Source of the DNA: a bacterium
Lineage (GTDB): Bacteria; Vulcanimicrobiota; JABDET01
Length of the DNA: 64,000 bases
Assembly (NCBI GenBank): GCA_021817145.1
Contig: JAKAVV010000001.1
Coordinates: 62,001 to 126,000, forward strand
Direction of reading: 5' to 3'
A model generated the notes under the pieces. The model worked only from the letters and a program-made list of their open reading frames with translations, made no database searches and was not told where the DNA came from. Below are positions 2,543 through 61,132 of the stretch, piece by piece (position 1 is the first letter of the stretch; each line of letters opens with the position of its first letter). Both the position numbers and the translations under genes were made by a program.

Positions 2543-3852
2543 CGATCATTGGTGGAGGGCTGGCAGGGTGCGAAGCAGCCTGGCAGGCAGCTGAGCTTGG
2601 GGTCGAAGTTGAACTTTATGAGATGCGCCCCGCAGTTTTAACTTTAGTTCATAAAACGGATCTTTTAGCAGAGTTGGTTTGTTCTAACTCTCTTGGAGTA
2701 AATGATCCAATGAAAGCCCCTGGGCTTCTGAAAGAAGAGTTGAGGAAAGTTGGCTCTTTATTGTTAAAAGCAGCAGATTCCTGTTCCATTCCAGCAGGTC
2801 AAGCTCTTGCCGTAGATCGTGGAGAGTTTTCTAAAAAAGTGACGGATTTGATTTCCAGCCACCCGGGGATACAAGTGATTCGAAAAGAGGTTCAAGAGAT
2901 CCCAGAAGGGGTATGCATTATTGCCACAGGTCCATTAACCAGCCCTGCTTTCAGTTCTTCTCTTAAATTTCTCTGCGGAGATTATTTGTATTATTATGAT
3001 GCTTCTGCTCCTATTGTTACAGGAGAAAGTTTGGATCTGTCGAAATTATATCACGGCTGTCGTTATGGTCGTGGAAATGAAAAAGCATATTTGAACTCCC
3101 CTTTTACAAAGGAAGAGTACCTGAATTTTGCAGCAGCCATTCAAACCAGTGAAAGAGTTCCTTATGCTCCTCATGAAGACCCTAAGTTTTTTGAAGGATG
3201 CATGCCGATTGAAGAAAAAGTGGATCGAGGAATTGACACGCTCAGGTTTGGCGCTATGAAACCTGTTGGACTTCCTGTTCCAGGAACAGGAAAAGAACCT
3301 TATGCCGTGGTCCAGCTTCGTCTTGAAAATCAGGAAGGAACCATGTATAATTTAGTTGGATTTCAGACCCGAATGAAATGGGGGGAGCAGGCGCGGATTT
3401 TCCACATGATTCCAGGGCTTGAGAAGGCTGAGTTTGTGAGATACGGAGTGATGCATCGAAATATTTTCATCTCTGCGCCGACTTTGCTTTCTCCGACTTT
3501 GCAATTAAAAACGAATCCTCTCCTTTTTTTTGCTGGTCAGATTACCGGAGTTGAAGGATATGTTGAAGATATTGCTTCTGGTTATTTAGCAGGAGTGAAT
3601 GCTGCTTTATACATGACAGGGATGAAGCCGATTCTGTTTCCAGAAACAACGGCTGTAGGGTCTCTTATCCATTATATTACCCATGCCCGTTCAAAAGATT
3701 TTCAACCCATGAGCATCAATTTCAGTTTGTTTCCTCCCCTTCCTTTTTCTGTTAAAGATAAAGCCTTGCGCCAGAAGCTTACAGCAGAAAGGGCATTAAA
3801 GGATTTGGAACAATTTAATCAATATTCAAGAAAGGGGGTTTATGCATCATGA
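2524..3852 (+). CDS. trmFO: Methylenetetrahydrofolate--tRNA-(uracil-5-)-methyltransferase TrmFO
   Basis: [51 protein letters not shown]. Confidence 0.95.
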
Positions 3853-17240: not shown

Positions 17241-18143
17241 GTGAATTCAGTCGAGCTTTTGCGCGTTTATCCACTTAACCAGCCAGCTGCGGGTCAGAAG
17301 GCTCATTTGAAAGGGAGAAATGGCGCTGAAAAAGCAAGGGGAGAAGATGGGAATATTTATGTGTTTAAATCCCCTCAATACGGTAGAAAAGGGAATCCTT
17401 TGACCTCTTCAGAAGTGAATGAAGCGATTGCGAAAGAGGTTGTGGCTTCCCATATTTTGATTGATGGATTTAAGCTGCAAGGGGTTCCTTATCAGGAGGG
17501 GCTTGTCCAGAAAAAAGAGGGTCATCTTGAAAAAGCTGTCATCTGCCCTTATATCCCTGAGCTTTCTACACTTTGTGAAACTTCAATTAAGAAAATCAAG
17601 AATCCGGATGAAGCTGTTGCTCAGTCTATTGTAAAGGGTTGGATAGGGGAATGGGGAACCATTCTTAATAACAGCAATGTTTTCGTAAAAAAAGATGGAA
17701 CTGTTCTAGCAGGGGATTTTGGAGAGGCTTTTCGGAAAGGGATCAGTTTTCGGCCCATTCCAGTCGCTCTTTTTAAAGGGTTCCCAAAAGCTAACTTTAC
17801 CATCATGAATCATTACGCTAATTCTTCTAATGTTAAAGACGTATCAAAAAAAATTAAAAAATTATCTGATGATGAGATTCGCGGAATGGTTCACCAATAT
17901 GGAACTCAATACACTTCTTTTTGGAATCAAAAGTTAGAAGATCGATTGACACAGGTTTTAATTCAGAATAGGGATGAATTAAAGAAGAAAAATATATTTG
18001 AGAATTTTTATAAAGGGTTTCATCCGATGATTACACCGCCATTCAGTTCTCTGATAGGATTTGTCAGTCTTTATGTCAGAACTCCTCTAGCCCATGCTGT
18101 TCGTATTTTTGAAAATTATCTTCCGAAAGGAGCGCTGCGATGA
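17241..18143 (+). CDS. Putative atypical kinase-fold protein, tandem paralog 1
   Basis: Shared core AEKARGEDGNIYVFKSP...EVNEAIAKEVVASHI...EKAVICPYIPELSTL...GEWGTILNNSNVFVKKDGTVLAGDFG; kinase-like Lys/Glu/Asn/DFG-like spacing. Confidence 0.6.
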   Translation: MNSVELLRVYPLNQPAAGQKAHLKGRNGAEKARGEDGNIYVFKSPQYGRKGNPLTSSEVNEAIAKEVVASHILIDGFKLQGVPYQEGLVQKKEGHLEKAVICPYIPELSTLCETSIKKIKNPDEAVAQSIVKGWIGEWGTILNNSNVFVKKDGTVLAGDFGEAFRKGISFRPIPVALFKGFPKANFTIMNHYANSSNVKDVSKKIKKLSDDEIRGMVHQYGTQYTSFWNQKLEDRLTQVLIQNRDELKKKNIFENFYKGFHPMITPPFSSLIGFVSLYVRTPLAHAVRIFENYLPKGALR

Positions 18144-19033
18144 ATCTTTTGCGTGTTTATCCTTTAAACCAGAAAGCTGCGAATTCAAATGCTCGATGGA
18201 GTGGAGCCAATGGAGCTGAAAAGGCAAAGGGAGAAGATGGAAATCTCTATGTCGTTAAATCGCCTCGATATGGAAGGAATCATCATCTTTTGACCTCTTC
18301 AGAAGTGAATGAAACGATTGCGAAAGAGGTTGTGGCTTCCCATATCTTGGCAGATGAATTTAAACTGCCTGGGATTCCTTATCAGGAGGGGATTTCTCAG
18401 AGAGAAGATTCTCCCCCTGAAAAAGCGGTGATCTGCCCTTATGTTCCTGATCTTTCGACTCTTTGGGAAACTTCAGCAAAAAAGATTAAGAACCCGGATG
18501 AAGCGGTGGCTCAGTCTGTTGTCAGGGGCTGGTTGGGGGATCCCGATACAATTATTAATAACAGCAATATTTTTATAAAAAAAGATGGAACCGTTTTATC
18601 GGGAGATTATGGGCTTGCTTTTCAGAGAGGGATTCGTTATAAAATTGCTCCACATCTACCTGGAAAAGGAGCGCCAAAAGCCAGTCTGGCAATTATGAAT
18701 GAGTATGCCTCTCCTTCAAATGTTGAACCTGTATCGGAAAAAATCAAACATTTATCTGATGAGGAGATTCGGGGAATGGTTCACAAATACGGGACTGAAT
18801 ACACTTCATTTTGGGATTCAAAATTAGAAGACCAGTTCACCCAGATTTTGATTCAGAATCGGGATGAACTGGCTGCAAAAAATGTCTTTGAGAATTTTTA
18901 TAAGGGATTTCATCCGTTTATTACGCCACCCATTAGTATTGCGATAGGGGCTGTTGTTCCTCATATTGGTCTTCCACTTGCCCAGGCTTTTCGCGTATTT
19001 CATGATCATCTTCCAAAAGGGTTGAGAAAATGA
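18140..19033 (+). CDS. Putative atypical kinase-fold protein, tandem paralog 2
   Basis: EKAKGEDGNLYVVKSP...VICPYVPDLSTLWE...GDPDTIINNSNIFIKKDGTVLSGDYG; ATGA overlap with paralog 1. Confidence 0.6.
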   Translation: MNLLRVYPLNQKAANSNARWSGANGAEKAKGEDGNLYVVKSPRYGRNHHLLTSSEVNETIAKEVVASHILADEFKLPGIPYQEGISQREDSPPEKAVICPYVPDLSTLWETSAKKIKNPDEAVAQSVVRGWLGDPDTIINNSNIFIKKDGTVLSGDYGLAFQRGIRYKIAPHLPGKGAPKASLAIMNEYASPSNVEPVSEKIKHLSDEEIRGMVHKYGTEYTSFWDSKLEDQFTQILIQNRDELAAKNVFENFYKGFHPFITPPISIAIGAVVPHIGLPLAQAFRVFHDHLPKGLRK

Positions 19034-19896
19034 AACCTCTGCAAGTTTATCCTCTCCATCAACCTGCTGCTGGCGCAAAAGCTCATTTTTCGGGAGCTCA
19101 TCATGCTGAAAAAGCAAAAGGTGAGGACGGGAATTTGTACGTTGTAAAACAGTATGGAAAAGGGGATCACAAAACTCCTTTTGAAGTGAATGAAGCGATT
19201 GCGAAGGAGGTTGTGGCTTCCCATATTGTTGTGGATAAATTTAAACTGCCTGGGATTCCTTATCAGGAAGGGACGGTTTACGGTGAGAGTGGAAAACTTG
19301 AAAAAGCGGTGATTTGCCCTTATGTTCCTGATCTTTCAACTCTTTGGGAAACATCGGCTAAAAAAATCAAGAATCCGGATGAAGCGGTGGCTCAATGTGT
19401 TGTTAGGGGGTGGCTTGGAGATTGGGATATAATCATTAATAACAGCAATATTTTTGTTGCGAAAGACGGGAGTGTTTTGGCAGGGGATTTTGGGCAAGGT
19501 TTTAATCGTGGGATTTCTACACGTGAAATCTTGATCCCATCGATAAAGAAGATCCCAAAAGCGAACCTGACGATCATGGGAAGATACGCAAAACCCACCA
19601 ATGTCAGACCTGTTGTTGAAAAAATAAAAAATTTATCAGATGAAGAGATACAAGGGATGGTTCATCAATATGGGGAACAATACGTTCAAGAATGGAATTC
19701 TGATCTGGAAAGTAAATTTACGAAAATTTTAACTGAAAATCGGGATAAACTGGCAGAGAAAGATCTGTTTGAGAAGTTTTATAAAGGATTCCATCCGATG
19801 ATTACCCCACCTATCAGCAGATTATTAACCGCTGCGGCCGGGAGTTTTTTCTTTCCTTTTGCTCAACTGATTCGGCATGCTATTTCTCGAATTTGA
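19030..19896 (+). CDS. Putative atypical kinase-fold protein, tandem paralog 3
   Basis: EKAKGEDGNLYVVKQYG...VICPYVPDLSTLWE...GDWDIIINNSNIFVAKDGSVLAGDFG; ATGA overlap with paralog 2. Confidence 0.6.
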   Translation: MKPLQVYPLHQPAAGAKAHFSGAHHAEKAKGEDGNLYVVKQYGKGDHKTPFEVNEAIAKEVVASHIVVDKFKLPGIPYQEGTVYGESGKLEKAVICPYVPDLSTLWETSAKKIKNPDEAVAQCVVRGWLGDWDIIINNSNIFVAKDGSVLAGDFGQGFNRGISTREILIPSIKKIPKANLTIMGRYAKPTNVRPVVEKIKNLSDEEIQGMVHQYGEQYVQEWNSDLESKFTKILTENRDKLAEKDLFEKFYKGFHPMITPPISRLLTAAAGSFFFPFAQLIRHAISRI

Positions 19897-53493: not shown

Positions 53494-53529
53494 TAGGAAA
53501 AATTTGCGATGTATGGTATAATATCATCA

Positions 53530-53841
53530 ATGAGACTAAAACCGGGAGAAAAGATTAAAACGGATCAGGCTGAATGGAAATCGCATTCCACAAAACGAAG
53601 CAGACCAGATACGCGCGCTCGCATCACAGTCGATCCAGAGATCTTGACAGGGAAAGCTGTTGTAAAAGGAACTCGCTTGTCTGTGGAATTTATTATTGAA
53701 CTGCTTGCTAAAGGCTGGACTACGAAAGATATACTAGAAAATTATCCGCAGCTTGCAAGTGAGGACATTCAAGCTTGCTTAGCCTATGCTGGAAAAATTT
53801 TAAGAGTGGAAAAAGTATATCCTCTGCAGTTTAATCCGTGA
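53530..53841 (+). CDS. DUF433 family (antitoxin-like) protein
   Basis: RITVDPEILTGKAVVKGTRLSVEFIIELLAKGWTTKDILENYPQLASEDIQACLAYA. Confidence 0.88.
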   Translation: MRLKPGEKIKTDQAEWKSHSTKRSRPDTRARITVDPEILTGKAVVKGTRLSVEFIIELLAKGWTTKDILENYPQLASEDIQACLAYAGKILRVEKVYPLQFNP

Positions 53842-54203
53842 ATTCTCTGAAATTGCTTGCGGATGAAAATTTTCCATGGAAAGCAGTAAAAGCTCTTCGA
53901 TCATCCGGTTATGATGTGGTATGGGTTGCTAAGGATAAGCCAGGAAGCACTGATCTGGAAGTTTTGTCTAGAGCAGCCAGGGAAAAGCGAATTTTATTAA
54001 CCTTCGACCGTGATTTTAGCACACTGGCATTTCGCATGGTCCTGCCGGCAGAAACAGGGGTTATTCTCTTTACTATTCCACTTGATTCTCTACTGCTGCT
54101 TGCCGAAAAGGTTGTTCATATTCTTGAGAGCCGTGATGACTGGTTTGCCCATTATTCCGAGATCGGGGATGACTGCATTCGAATGTTTCCTCTATTTACA
54201 TAA
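53838..54203 (+). CDS. DUF5615 PIN-like toxin-like protein
   Basis: LKLLADENFPWKAVKALRSSGYDVVWVAKDKPGSTDLEVLSRAAREKRILLTFDRDFSTLAF; GTGA overlap with DUF433 gene. Confidence 0.87.
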   Translation: MNSLKLLADENFPWKAVKALRSSGYDVVWVAKDKPGSTDLEVLSRAAREKRILLTFDRDFSTLAFRMVLPAETGVILFTIPLDSLLLLAEKVVHILESRDDWFAHYSEIGDDCIRMFPLFT

Positions 54204-55632: not shown

Positions 55633-55748
55633 TAAAAATGCGGTTTTTATGATCGATCTCATTGCAGTATTTCTAGATGCCGTGTAGAATAATGTGTTAC
55701 TACTGTTTTATGAGGATAATGGAAGGAGCTCGTAAGTAAATAGGAATT

Positions 55749-56857
55749 ATGGGCAAACTTAATGAGAATCAAAAAATAGTGACTCGGGACATTTTGTTTT
55801 TTTTAAGTGAGAAAGCAGTGATTTATCTTGTTTTTATACTTGCTCTTTTTGCTTTTGCTGTTTTTTGCGCTTTGTACTGTCAGAAGTCAGCCTCAACCCT
55901 CAAGCTGAAAGCCCGACTAAAGCGATTCCCGTATTTCCCAACCCCAATTTGAATCAAGCGTTTCGCAATGCTGTATGGGAAGGGAATTTGCAGTTAATAA
56001 AACAGCTCTTAAAAAAGGGGGCTGATATTAACCATCAAGGATCTTATGGGGCAGGAGAAATGACCCCTTTGGCCACTGCTGTCAAATGGAGGCATTTTAG
56101 AGTGGTGAAATATTTAGTTTCTCATGGAGCAGACGTCAATGAGCCTTCTTTTATTGGGTATACTCCTTTGGAAATAGCTGTCAAATATAAAAATTTAAGA
56201 TGTGTGAAGTATTTAGTTTCTCATGGAGCAGAGATTAATCTAAAAGATTCGTATGGGAATTTTCCTCTCAGCTATGCAGCTCGAAAAGGGGAGTTAAGGA
56301 TAGTAAGGTTTTTAGTTTCTCATGGAGCAGAGATTAGTCTAAAGGATTCTTATGGTGAGACTGCTTTGGGTGAAGCTTTGTTTTACCATCATCTTCGCGT
56401 TGTGAAATATCTTTTGTCTTATGGACCCAAGTGGAGGGAGAAAACAACCCTTCTTTCCTATTCAGCAGCAGTTCATTATCCTGATGAATATATTGGACAG
56501 AAGATAAATTGGAGTGGATCAGTGGTAAGTATTGATACAGGTAAAGGGTTTTTAGAAGTGCTCAGGGGCAACTCATTATACCCATTGATCGTATTTTATA
56601 AAGGATACTGCTCGACCAGCAAGTTAGCAAAAAGAGGTATTAAAGATGGCGTCAAAATTAGAATTTTTGGCGTTTTTGAGGGGTTGACCTCTAATCCTTC
56701 TGTAAAGGTAAAAGCGATTCAGATTGAACGGCTGAAAACAGGTAACCCTGGTGGGCGAAAGAGGCGAACCCGCGTGGCTCACGATTTGGTAAAAAGTAAT
56801 AGTTTTTGGATGCTTTTACATGGCAAGCAGTGGAGGATGTTGAAGGTTCCTCGCTAA
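55749..56857 (+). pseudogene. Ankyrin-repeat protein, frame-split from its N-terminal signal/TM segment; C-terminal OB-fold-like region
   Basis: 55749 ORF supplies SEKAVIYLVFILALFAFAVF; ORF at 55865 supplies repeats VVKYLVSHGADVNEPSFIGYTPLEIAVKYKNLRC. One extra T in the T6 tract at 55861-55866 would join them. Confidence 0.65.
56748..56764. repeat. 17-bp copy of tRNA-Val 3' end (putative attachment-site remnant, distal)
   Basis: ctggtgggcgaaagagg identical to 61055-61071. Confidence 0.7.
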
Positions 56858-56874
56858 TCTTGCATGTCATAAGA

Positions 56875-57705
56875 ATGAATTTGAGTGAATGGTTTAGGGT
56901 GTCACCTGACGTTATGAGCAGTCAGGTCACGAGTTTGACCTGGAAGCCCTCTCCTTACCCTCGGCCTGGAGGGAGTTCCGGGGCCTTTGAGGTTGAAGCA
57001 TCCGAGGGGGATTATAGGGCACTGCTTAAGCCCGGCAGGCCTGATCCTCAATCTTTGCCTCGGTGTCAGGCTGCTGTGGAAAGAATCGCTTTCGTTTTGG
57101 GAAACCGTCTTGACCTCCCCATTCCACCAGTCCAGTTGACCAAAGGCTTTCCCCCGGCAGTGGCTGACTGGCCTTGCTGCATCGCATTTAAGCCAAAGGG
57201 AGCCGTGTGGACATGGGGATATTTACAGGCAAAGGGCGCACTGTCAGCTCTTGATAAGAATTTGTTTCAGGAAGGCGCAAGGATTGTTCCATTTCATATC
57301 TGGATAGATGCCCATGACCGCGCAAACCAGGGGAATATCCTTTATGTCGAAAATCCCGAATCTGGGGAATCCCGGTTCTTCTTTATCGACCACTCCACCA
57401 GCATGTTGGGGGCCGAGCAGGTGGGACATAAGCACTGGCGGGAGGGCCGTCCTCTGGAGTTCGTCCAATGTGCGGTTTTCGCTCAGTTTTTGGAACAAAT
57501 TTCCTCTCTCACAGCGTCCAAAACCATAGACAAAATCGCCAATTTGAGTGATAATGAGATTAGAGAGGCCGTTTTATCCATTCCGGAGGAGTTCCTTACA
57601 AGTGAGGAGAAATGCCTTACCATAGAGGGGCTTCTACAACGGAAGGGGAAGATTCGGGAGCTTGTAAAAAGGTGGTTTGAGAATTATGGGAAATCGTATG
57701 ACTAG
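56875..57705 (+). CDS. HipA-like atypical kinase domain protein
   Basis: YRALLKPG...VERIAFVLGNRLDLPIPPVQL...FHIWIDAHDRANQGNILYV...FFFIDHSTSML; start set at ATG 56875. Confidence 0.7.
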   Translation: MNLSEWFRVSPDVMSSQVTSLTWKPSPYPRPGGSSGAFEVEASEGDYRALLKPGRPDPQSLPRCQAAVERIAFVLGNRLDLPIPPVQLTKGFPPAVADWPCCIAFKPKGAVWTWGYLQAKGALSALDKNLFQEGARIVPFHIWIDAHDRANQGNILYVENPESGESRFFFIDHSTSMLGAEQVGHKHWREGRPLEFVQCAVFAQFLEQISSLTASKTIDKIANLSDNEIREAVLSIPEEFLTSEEKCLTIEGLLQRKGKIRELVKRWFENYGKSYD

Positions 57706-58099
57706 AAAGGAATTCACGTGCTGCTCCTTTTCCCCTGACGCAAGCAGCAAGAAAGGCCACGTTCTCGCCGTGATTGCCGCCACATGGCAGGGAGAAAACA
57801 AGTTGAAAAATGTCGAGTGGTGCCTGAATGAGGAAGCAAGAAGCCTTCTGGAGGATGTCACAAAAATCAAGTCCCTGAGGAACGTCCTTCTGAATCTGCA
57901 TGATTTCTTTAAAGAAGCGGCCACAAGAGCAGTGGAACGTCTTGGTTCCGATCATGCAAAGTTTTGGGACATGTTTTTTGACGAAGTGGGTTGCCTAAAT
58001 TTCTCTTTCACTGAACCGGCGGAAACGGACACCGAATCCCTGAAGGAAATTTTGAACCAGCAGATCAGGTCGAAAGAAGAATTGCTGGTTACCGCGTGA
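57698..58099 (+). CDS. Hypothetical partner protein overlapping the HipA-like gene
   Basis: MTRKEFTCCSFSPDASSKKGHVLAVIAAT...; 8-nt overlap with upstream CDS. Confidence 0.6.
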   Translation: MTRKEFTCCSFSPDASSKKGHVLAVIAATWQGENKLKNVEWCLNEEARSLLEDVTKIKSLRNVLLNLHDFFKEAATRAVERLGSDHAKFWDMFFDEVGCLNFSFTEPAETDTESLKEILNQQIRSKEELLVTA

Positions 58100-58119
58100 A
58101 CCTTGCATCTCTATAAATC

Positions 58120-58167
58120 CTGGTGGGCGAAAGAGGACTTGAACCTCTGACCTCCTGAATGTAAGTC
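58120..58167. repeat. 48-bp perfect copy of the tRNA-Val 3' half (putative attachment site)
   Basis: ctggtgggcgaaagaggacttgaacctctgacctcctgaatgtaagtc identical to 61055-61102. Confidence 0.93.
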
Positions 58168-58303
58168 CAATGTGCCACTTTTTGCCCCTTTTTAGTTTCG
58201 TTGAGTTTGTTCAGTATTTATAGGGGTTTAAGCCACTTTTCAAGTGAAGGTCAGTTTGTCCATTTTTACCCCTTTTTGGACTCATCCGTTAGAAAGCTTA
58301 ATT

Positions 58304-59587
58304 CTACCACCGTTTCACCCCACCATGACGGGAACAAGCACCGCGCCCTGTGGCTTCTGAGCAAGTTCCATCACGACAAAGCGTTTCTCCTTGACATTGG
58401 TTATCTTTTTTCTGATTTCCCTGCTGTGGGTTCTCATTCGATGGGGCAACTATTGTTGCGCCTAATGGTGAAGTTCCAATATACCAAGCTGGATGAATCT
58501 CCATCCAACCATGATCTTTATCAAGTACGTACGGGCCCACAACGTAAACATGGGAACCAACTTCAGGCTTTCGAATTGAATTGTGGTATCCTTCACAAGC
58601 AGTAATCGCATCAATTTGGGTTACGGAATGTTCACACACTGCTTCCACAACAAGGTCTCCATGCTCACCAGAATAATTCCTTCCATCGAGAAGCCTTTGG
58701 TAAGGATTGTCCAGAATAATGTTGATATGATAATCTCCATCTCTTTCTGGTCTCACGGTGTCCACTGTTCCCGATACAAGCATGCAGGAGTTAATGACCT
58801 TGAGTCTCCAGGAGTTATAAACATGCGCCATGATGTCTCCATGTTTACAATAGGATCCAGAGGAAACATAATTGCTGTTACCATTTCCCCGTCCTCCTGC
58901 ATTGCCAAGGTTGAATTCTTTTGGCATGTTCTGCAGGTACGTAACTTCTACTGGATGAGTATGCTTAATTTCTACTGCATAGAAAGGAGCATGGCAGTTC
59001 GAGGCTATTTTCTTGGAAATCATCAACTCTGTAATTTTTTTTAAGATGGCTTTATCATTACCGTAAGAACCCGGGGTTCCGCTAAATTTTAAATCTGAGG
59101 TTTTCTCCGACACCTTAACCACGACAAGATTAAGTGGGGAAATATCCTGGCAAAGTTTCACGGAAAAATGCTGTCCAACTTGAATTTTTTTACCTTTTCC
59201 CGCTGGGATTTCGTAAAATATTTTCTTGCCTGATTGAACTATACTTACAGGAAGCGAAAGAGGTTTATTTTTTTTTGATTCATGATACAGAAGTAGAATA
59301 CTCAGTCCTCTTCTCATTTTAAATTTGCCTTTTGTGTTAAAGAAGCCAACCATCTTTTCCCCTTCTGGATAAATTCCCGAAATCGTCCCAATTTTTTCAC
59401 CGTGAAATAAGATTTTGAAACTTGACAATGAAGGAAGTGGAAGCTGGGGTTTAAAAGAAACCCGAATCTCCCTCCATCCCATATTCATTACTCCTGTAAC
59501 GACTGCGGGTATCTGCTCATCTGCAGCAATGGCTGATATTTGAAGGAGAAATAAAAGTAACAGGAATTGAACGAAGTTATGTCTCAT
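58304..59587 (-). CDS. Secreted multidomain protein: MCE-like N-terminal region, OB-fold-like GWMEIHP domain, DUF3761-like C-terminus
   Basis: Signal peptide MRHNFVQFLLLLFLLQISAIAAD; SSFKILFHGEKIGTISGIYPEG; CMLVSGTVDTVRPERDGDYHINIILD...DKDHGWMEIHPAWYIG; LCRDGTCSEATGRGACSRHGGVKRW. Confidence 0.65.
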   Translation of the reverse strand: MRHNFVQFLLLLFLLQISAIAADEQIPAVVTGVMNMGWREIRVSFKPQLPLPSLSSFKILFHGEKIGTISGIYPEGEKMVGFFNTKGKFKMRRGLSILLLYHESKKNKPLSLPVSIVQSGKKIFYEIPAGKGKKIQVGQHFSVKLCQDISPLNLVVVKVSEKTSDLKFSGTPGSYGNDKAILKKITELMISKKIASNCHAPFYAVEIKHTHPVEVTYLQNMPKEFNLGNAGGRGNGNSNYVSSGSYCKHGDIMAHVYNSWRLKVINSCMLVSGTVDTVRPERDGDYHINIILDNPYQRLLDGRNYSGEHGDLVVEAVCEHSVTQIDAITACEGYHNSIRKPEVGSHVYVVGPYVLDKDHGWMEIHPAWYIGTSPLGATIVAPSNENPQQGNQKKDNQCQGETLCRDGTCSEATGRGACSRHGGVKRW

Positions 59588-59842
59588 CAGTAGAACCTCC
59601 TCTGGCAATTTATGGAAATTCTCATTGTACTCCTTTTTTCGTTTTTCACAACCTACCCCTAAACAGTAAGCCAGCAGTAGCCATTGCGTAGAATATGAAT
59701 ACTGGCTGTTATGAGAAATTAGGCTGAAAAGGAAGGAAAAGAAAAGCTGGCAGGGGCAGTAAACTCTTCCCTTTAAAGCAAACGGGTAAGAGGTTACGTA
59801 TTACGAAAAGAACGAAAACCGTTTTAAGGGAAAGGTAATGGG

Positions 59843-60823
59843 TTAGGGTTTTGGTCTTTCCCAGAGCACACGTCCTGATTTGCGAAACAACACAATCGAA
59901 TTAGCCCTGCGGTGTTCAGTCGCTCCTGAGCTTATATACTGCAAATTAACAGATCCTAAATCAAGAAGATTTTTCCCGTCTGCGCTGTCCATCTGCAGGG
60001 TAGGTCTTCCATTTGAATGAAGAAAAAGGAAAGCACGAAGGGTTCCTTTGGCATCGTACATCTCCAAGTCTGGGCTTCCATGCTGACCAAGCAAAAACAT
60101 AGCACGGGGGTTTCCTTTGGCATCGTCCATCCCTAACATTGGGCTTCCATGCTGACCAAGGGAAAACATAGCACGGGGGTTTCCTTTGGCATCGAGCATC
60201 CCTAACATTGGGCTTCCATGCTTAGTAAGAAAAAACTTAACACGGGGGTTTCCTTTGGCATCGTCCATCCCTAACATTGGGCTTCCATGCTTAGTAAGAA
60301 AAAACTTAACACGGGGGTTTCCTTTGGCATCGTCCATATCCAAGTGTGGGCTTCCATGCTGACCAAGCAAAAGGAAAGCACGGGGGTTTCCTTTGGCATC
60401 GTCCATCCCTAACATTGGGCTTCCATGCTTAGTAAGGGCAAGTGCAGCACGGGGGGTTCCTTTGGCATCGTCCATCCCTAAGTCTGGGCTTCCATGCTGA
60501 CCAAGGGCAAGTGCAGCACGAAGGGTTCCTTTGGCATCGGACATCCCTAACATTGGGCTTCCATGCTTAGTAAGAAAAAGGAAAGCACGGGGGGTTCCTT
60601 TGGCATCGAACATATCCAAGTGTGGGCTTCCATTACGAATACCAAAAGACCCTCTGGTTTTCCCCTTAGAATCAACGAGGCGGAACTCTTGCGCTGAGAT
60701 GACTTTTCTTTGGTCTGCTGCAAAGACTGGTTTCCCATAAAGGAAAGTAGTCATGACAGCCCCTCCCAGAAATCCTGAAATCATCAGAACTAATAATCCT
60801 CCTAAATACTGCTTGGTGTTCAT
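59843..60823 (-). CDS. Membrane-anchored/exported protein with about ten 23-aa tandem repeats
   Basis: N-terminal hydrophobic segment; HGSPMLGMDDAKGNPRAxFxLxx repeated; start set at ATG 60823. Confidence 0.85.
   Translation of the reverse strand: MNTKQYLGGLLVLMISGFLGGAVMTTFLYGKPVFAADQRKVISAQEFRLVDSKGKTRGSFGIRNGSPHLDMFDAKGTPRAFLFLTKHGSPMLGMSDAKGTLRAALALGQHGSPDLGMDDAKGTPRAALALTKHGSPMLGMDDAKGNPRAFLLLGQHGSPHLDMDDAKGNPRVKFFLTKHGSPMLGMDDAKGNPRVKFFLTKHGSPMLGMLDAKGNPRAMFSLGQHGSPMLGMDDAKGNPRAMFLLGQHGSPDLEMYDAKGTLRAFLFLHSNGRPTLQMDSADGKNLLDLGSVNLQYISSGATEHRRANSIVLFRKSGRVLWERPKP
59950..60634 (-). repeat. 69-bp coding tandem repeat array (about 10 units)
   Basis: gggcttccatgct[gacc/tagt]aag... cctttggcatcgtccat repeated every 69 bp. 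Confidence 0.9.
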
Positions 60824-60986
60824 CGTTTCATCACTCCTTTTTTTAATTATTCTGAGTAACAGCATGGATCTTTCGTTCTTCTTTAATTTATCTCGAATGT
60901 TAGGTTTCCCTGCTCTAAAGACACCGAAGTTTGCTGTGGTACAAATTTGATGAGATTTTTAATAATTTTTTCATTCTCTGGGAAAT

Positions 60987-61008
60987 CACGTTAGATCCAC
61001 GTTAGATC
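60987..61008. repeat. 11-bp perfect tandem direct repeat CACGTTAGATC x2
   Basis: Read directly; flanked by TCACG...CGTGA. Confidence 0.9.
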
Positions 61009-61055
61009 GTGAGTGTTTTCAAAACCAGATAAACTCACAAACACCGCATCAATAC

Positions 61056-61132
61056 TGGTGGGCGAAAGAGGACTTGAACCTCTGACCTCCTGAATGTAAG
61101 TCAGGCGCTCTAACCAACTGAGCTATTCGCCC
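61056..61132 (-). tRNA. tRNA-Val (anticodon TAC), CCA encoded
   Basis: Reverse complement GGGCGAA-TAGCTCAGTTGGTTAGAGC-G-CCTGACTTACATTCAGG-AGGTC-AGAGGTTCAAGTCCTCT-TTCGCCC-A-CCA. Confidence 0.97.

Follow-up and report, generated by a model that had tools for sequence, protein, structure and literature searches.

CIMEs, elements of the cis-mobilizable type, are bounded by att sites, carry cargo only and are without genes for integration and transfer; they are mobilised when another element integrates at their att site (PMC7563491, PMC5704250). They accrete at tRNA or ribosomal-protein genes, for example in Streptococcus, measure 1.2-13 kb and stand in tandem with further att copies (PMC7563491, PMC5704250), the most decayed element lying farthest from the target gene (PMC7563491). 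In Dehalococcoides, islands are arranged in tandem downstream of one RNA gene, ssrA, each with a direct repeat of the 3' end of that gene (PMC3146451). A composite island with a HipA-type kinase (HipAB) has been described at tRNA-Trp of Shewanella (CGI48; PMC8978831).

The locus analysed here lies in a window of 64,000 nucleotides (G000:C28:62001-126000) from a draft genome of 42 contigs (G000; 2.66 Mb, 97% complete), which was compared with one congener genome (G001) and with three extracted loci (L049, L022 and L021). It resembles the ssrA islands, which likewise combine a tandem arrangement and 3'-end repeats with strain-specific cargo and in some cases are without an integration module (PMC3146451). 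However, many of the ssrA islands contain a serine recombinase module, and their 20-bp repeat lies at the T-loop (PMC3146451), whereas here the core measures 47 bp and starts in the anticodon arm, and serine recombinases are absent. With CGI48 it shares a kinase of HipA type in a tRNA island, but CGI48 measures 48 kb and encodes an integrase and an excisionase (PMC8978831), compared with a segment of 1.4 kb here that contains no integrase and in which a HipA_2-like kinase is accompanied by a different partner.

The intact tRNA-Val(TAC) that had been read from the sequence alone on the minus strand was recovered by ARAGORN, and the 48-bp and 17-bp copies of its 3' part (termed R2 and R1, respectively) were verified as exact matches in the orientation of the tRNA (Table 1). 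Positions 58120-58167 equal 61055-61102, i.e. 47 bp of tRNA and 1 bp past the CCA end, and positions 56748-56764 equal 61055-61071. R1 is slightly closer to R2 than to the tRNA, with 18 bp matching exactly (56747-56764 and 58119-58136) and 20 of 21 positions identical when the comparison is extended (56744-56764 and 58116-58136). Allowing up to three mismatches, the 18-mer of the tRNA end has an expectation of 0.06 occurrences in the shuffled window; four were observed, namely the tRNA, R2, R1 and one site with three mismatches. Genome-wide, the 16-bp tRNA end TGGTGGGCGAAAGAGG occurs with at most one mismatch only at the tRNA, R2 and R1 in G000, and once in the congener, where it is the tRNA itself. 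The arrangement of three repeats is real and beyond chance.

Table 1. Features of the tRNA-Val(TAC) locus; positions refer to the window unless a contig is named.
Feature	Position	Strand	Description
Intact tRNA-Val(TAC)	61056..61132	-	ARAGORN; Rfam RF00005, 77.5 bits; 3' half is the tRNA-side attachment site (attL-like)
Left end adjoining tRNA	61019..61055	-	common to tRNA-Val(GAC) locus G000:C5 (L022 3325-3361)
Tandem GATCTAACGT sites near left end	60989..61012	-	
Cargo ORF, 340 aa	59843..60865	-	N-terminal hydrophobic segment and 23-aa repeats
Cargo ORF, 434 aa	58304..59608	-	likely secreted; DUF3761-like C-terminus, sub-threshold
Conserved right end	58168..58293	-	corresponds to L049 3318-3443, within a 181-bp alignment (95% identity)
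R2, exact 48-bp copy of tRNA 3' half	58120..58167	-	tRNA positions 31-77 plus 1 bp; distal attachment site (attR-like)
140-aa ORF	57677..58099	+	overlaps kinase gene; likely partner; weak PDC-M04A match (PADLOC)
HipA_2-like kinase	56878..57705	+	ATG at 56878; longer ORF from 56806
R1, 17-18 bp copy of tRNA 3' end	56747..56764	-	within 3' part of ankyrin ORF; candidate older attR
L049	contig JAJZOC010000069.1, 3.5 kb		bin MAS4.bin4 (G149, 0.7-Mb bin); same junction at 3444-3490

Read in tRNA orientation, the full tRNA is followed by the left end, the 340-aa ORF, the 434-aa ORF, the right end, the displaced tRNA 3' half and the outer flank, which is the order expected from insertion into a tRNA. 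R2 and the tRNA are 100% identical between the CCA end and position 31 in the anticodon arm, where the match breaks off abruptly to background level; when the outer flanks are joined, an intact tRNA-Val(TAC) results. A duplication that covers the tRNA from its anticodon arm to its 3' end and leaves the tRNA restored is the mark of the anticodon-loop integration class. Tyrosine integrases include such a class, and the enzyme of this element would presumably belong to it.

The ends of the 2.9-kb element recur at other loci. An exact search of the genome contigs with the 47-bp tRNA half gave two loci, the tRNA of the congener and L049, a contig from another bin that ends eight bases beyond the junction. 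Over its last 181 bp, L049 is identical to the window at 172 positions; all nine differences fall within the 126 bp inside the element (117/126 identical, 93%), and the 47-bp core and the eight outer bases are unchanged. The recurrence of the R2 junction in another bin makes misassembly at this point unlikely; L049 itself may have strayed into its bin. Its inner content differs from that of the window and comprises genes for a C5 cytosine methyltransferase (Pfam, 4e-73) and a putative type II restriction enzyme (PADLOC, 7e-18), followed further inward by a stretch common to the end of a transposase gene elsewhere in G000 and by the start of a SocA/Panacea gene. No close copy of the methyltransferase and restriction genes was found in G000, the best DNA match (66%) being to another methyltransferase gene. 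The Panacea start of L049 and its upstream motif are present also at G000:C5 beside tRNA-Val(GAC) (92% over 214 bp), where the 37 bp directly 3' of this tRNA match the left end of the window as part of a 114-bp match at 87%. This second island is cut off at the contig end, next to an IS end, and no viral relatives of the Panacea gene were found. Common ends at two tRNA-Val loci and on one further, strain-like contig are the pattern that a family of site-specific elements would give. The reading of the 2.9-kb segment as an integrated element, which we regard as well supported, is backed by an end that occurs with other cargo in another bin, by an opposite end that recurs at a second tRNA-Val gene and by the mosaic junction in the anticodon arm.

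The right end contains two related copies, AAAAAGGGGTAAAAATGG and AAAAAGGGGCAAAAAGTGG, 84 bp apart, and a third related copy lies near the Panacea gene in L049. A doublet similar to the tandem GATCTAACGT sites of the left end stands beside the right end in L049 (3305-3324). We read these copies and doublets as candidate arm sites for a binding protein such as an integrase.

Several further features were noted at the related loci. On L049, two exact 37-nt repeats (GCTTTAATGCGCGATCCATAAAAATAAGGATTGAAAC), 75 bp apart (438-549), form a short CRISPR-like array beside the restriction-modification cargo, and a dispersed repeat of about 95 bp (149-250) is found, at 87-93% identity, also on contigs C1, C21, C27, C37 and others of G000. 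Beside tRNA-Val(GAC), the SocA/Panacea-domain gene is followed by a 127-aa ORF matching phrog_19071 (L022 436-1387, G000:C5) and then by a gene pair that by eye resembles IS21 IstA/IstB.

Within the 2.9-kb element, about 190 non-coding bp separate the tRNA from the first ORF, which does not encode an integrase. Profile searches gave no confident family assignment for this 340-aa ORF; it contains eight tandem repeat units of 69 bp (23 aa) at 59918-60700. Residues 275-385 of the 434-aa protein have paralogues at G000:C3 and G001:C11, and no viral relatives of this protein were found. None of the ORFs between R1 and the tRNA matched any relaxase or coupling-protein family.

The 1.4-kb segment between R1 and R2 has a G+C content of 49%, compared with 38-43% around it. 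Its kinase matches Pfam HipA_2 below the cut-off (E = 1e-3), PADLOC PDC-M03A (5e-6) and phrog_3162 (2e-10), and the stop codon of the adjoining 140-aa ORF lies 20 bp before R2. A single weak match (27% identity) was obtained for the kinase in the phylum, and searches for plasmid matches, viral relatives and relatives of solved structure gave none; an AlphaFold model (mean pLDDT 39) was discarded. The sequence-only reading had proposed two adjacent insertions at one tRNA. Independent evidence backs the inner one, as described above, while the outer one is a step that we infer. The most natural reading of the 1.4-kb segment is an older element of the same kind that was displaced outward by accretion, to which we give an even chance; this agrees with the pattern in CIMEs, where decay is most advanced in the outermost element (PMC7563491).

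Two other origins of the repeats were weighed. The alternative that the sequence-only reading had set against itself, in which a duplicated array of tRNA-Val genes would have left the repeats behind, draws on Rfam, which scores 58124-58187 as tRNA (35.8 bits, gathering score 29 bits). However, this score derives from the exact 3' half; the 5' side of R2 aligns to the tRNA only as GGGCAAAAAG, a similarity that half of random 40-mers reach as well, a RGGGYAAAAA-like motif also occurs elsewhere in the element, away from any tRNA half, and ARAGORN called no tRNA at R2. The similarity that in an array would run on into the tRNA 5' half is not found, and because the sequence preceding position 31 stays at this random level, R2 is a mosaic junction rather than an ancient tRNA duplication. 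An array was rejected for R2, and for the repeats we hold it to be very improbable. R1 could instead be a fragment produced by local duplication or conversion in the ankyrin ORF, in which case it would be no attachment site and the 1.4-kb segment no element. Its length of only 17-18 bp, its position in an open ankyrin frame and the absence of a conserved end beside it speak for such a fragment; against it, the genome has no match to R1 besides R2 and the tRNA, and R1 has the correct orientation for an attachment site and delimits, together with R2, a compact kinase-plus-partner module of different base composition. No end like that of the 2.9-kb element was found next to R1, nor any independent copy of R1, and a truncation test detected no homologue of the C-terminal part of the ankyrin ORF holding R1 in 58 relatives. 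A fragment is a serious possibility for R1, somewhat short of an even one.

In the congener, the right flank is about 76% identical, the left-flank genes are rearranged and placed on a different contig, and no DNA match to window positions ~55650-61050 was found in the stretches compared. Its tRNA-Val(TAC) lies only 293 bp from a contig end that falls within 76-bp tandem repeats, and the flanks of both of its tRNA-Val genes differ from those in G000. The search for an unoccupied insertion site in this congener, the check that the sequence-only reading had called for, yielded none. The 76-bp repeat is perfect and runs from directly 3' of the tRNA to the contig end (L021 23-279, G001:C9). Elsewhere in the window, two adjacent ORFs of 110 and 121 aa (53509-54203), by eye toxin-antitoxin-like of the DUF433/DUF5615 type, are absent from the aligned blocks of the congener, and three consecutive paralogous ORFs of ~290-300 aa stand in tandem between housekeeping genes (17241-19896).

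Neither the ORF list nor profile searches revealed an integrase between R1 and the tRNA, in agreement with the sequence-only reading, and the tRNA is not flanked by an integrase of the island's own as in an autonomous island. That reading had suggested looking for a trans-acting integrase elsewhere in the genome. In the binned genome, none except Xer was found: G000 encodes one PF00589 protein, with its best score to XerC/XerD-like models and just under their cut-offs, and no PF00239 serine recombinase. Because the element contains no integrase and the genome none but Xer, we class it as non-autonomous and of the cis-mobilizable (CIME-like) type. In the mechanism that we propose, a mobile element would have recombined site-specifically into the anticodon arm of tRNA-Val(TAC), with a tyrosine integrase as the likely agent. 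After insertion, the tRNA would have had a re-formed 3' half at one end of the element (61056), the displaced half coming to lie at its far end (58120-58167). The element would be a member of a small family whose ends are conserved and whose cargo can be exchanged, and which would also occupy tRNA-Val(GAC) of the same genome, and its movement, by mobilization in trans or in cis, would require an incoming integrase. We consider it quite probable that the locus represents a family of integrase-less, CIME-like elements inserted site-specifically at tRNA-Val, with the kinase segment most likely an older accreted member.

Two further explanations concern the missing enzyme. The integrase of the element might be present in the organism on a contig that was not binned, as the genome is a 42-contig draft of 97% completeness and the island on C5 ends at a contig end beside an IS end. 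Against this stand the lack of a second PF00589 gene and of any PF00239 gene in G000 or G001, and the viral, phage and plasmid collections, in which no element with these ends was found and weak matches span only tRNA-like bases; we judge it unlikely. Alternatively, the islands may be fixed relics of an ancient site-specific insertion whose cargo is now swapped only by homologous recombination, for example through transformation, between the tRNA and the conserved ends. The presence of no recombinase except Xer agrees with this explanation, as does the different cargo at the same locus and behind the same end in L049, a difference that homologous recombination between the common ends would also explain. 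However, for the left end to stand at two different tRNA-Val genes, site-specific movement must have occurred at least in the past, and the unchanged 47-bp core next to nine differences in the neighbouring 126 bp (p = 0.05) hints weakly at a constraint on the site. We regard fixed relics as possible, if somewhat doubtful.

The integrase-less element of the preferred reading shares with CIMEs its small, att-bounded form, the restriction to cargo, the tandem array of further att copies and the position of the most decayed copy farthest from the target. It has direct repeats of attL/attR type (48 bp exact, a mosaic junction and a conserved end) and encodes neither an integrase nor conjugation or mobilization functions. 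It differs from CIMEs in that no autonomous ICE or IME partner is known in the genus and no related one was found, and in that its ends are conserved at a second tRNA-Val gene too. The element works like a CIME and probably is one; gene content and att sites provide the assignment here. CIMEs are also characterised by origin from an ICE or IME through deletion and by mobilization through an element that integrates at their att site.

A bolder possibility, which we think improbable, is a genus-specific family of cargo-only islands of ~1.4-3 kb with intact attachment sites and conserved ends that circulates between tRNA-Val isoacceptor genes without a resident integrase, moved wholly in trans by visiting elements. 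If so, such islands would swap cargo of defence type, namely restriction-modification genes, a Panacea gene pair and a HipA-like kinase. The near-identical end with different cargo in another sampled genome makes the element a new but ordinary example of a known gene carrier, one more in a well-described class. It marks tRNA-Val as a site of cargo exchange in a poorly known lineage, where one end is kept while the cargo is replaced, and because the host genome apparently has no integrase except Xer, it offers a clean minimal case for asking whether integrase-less islands still move.
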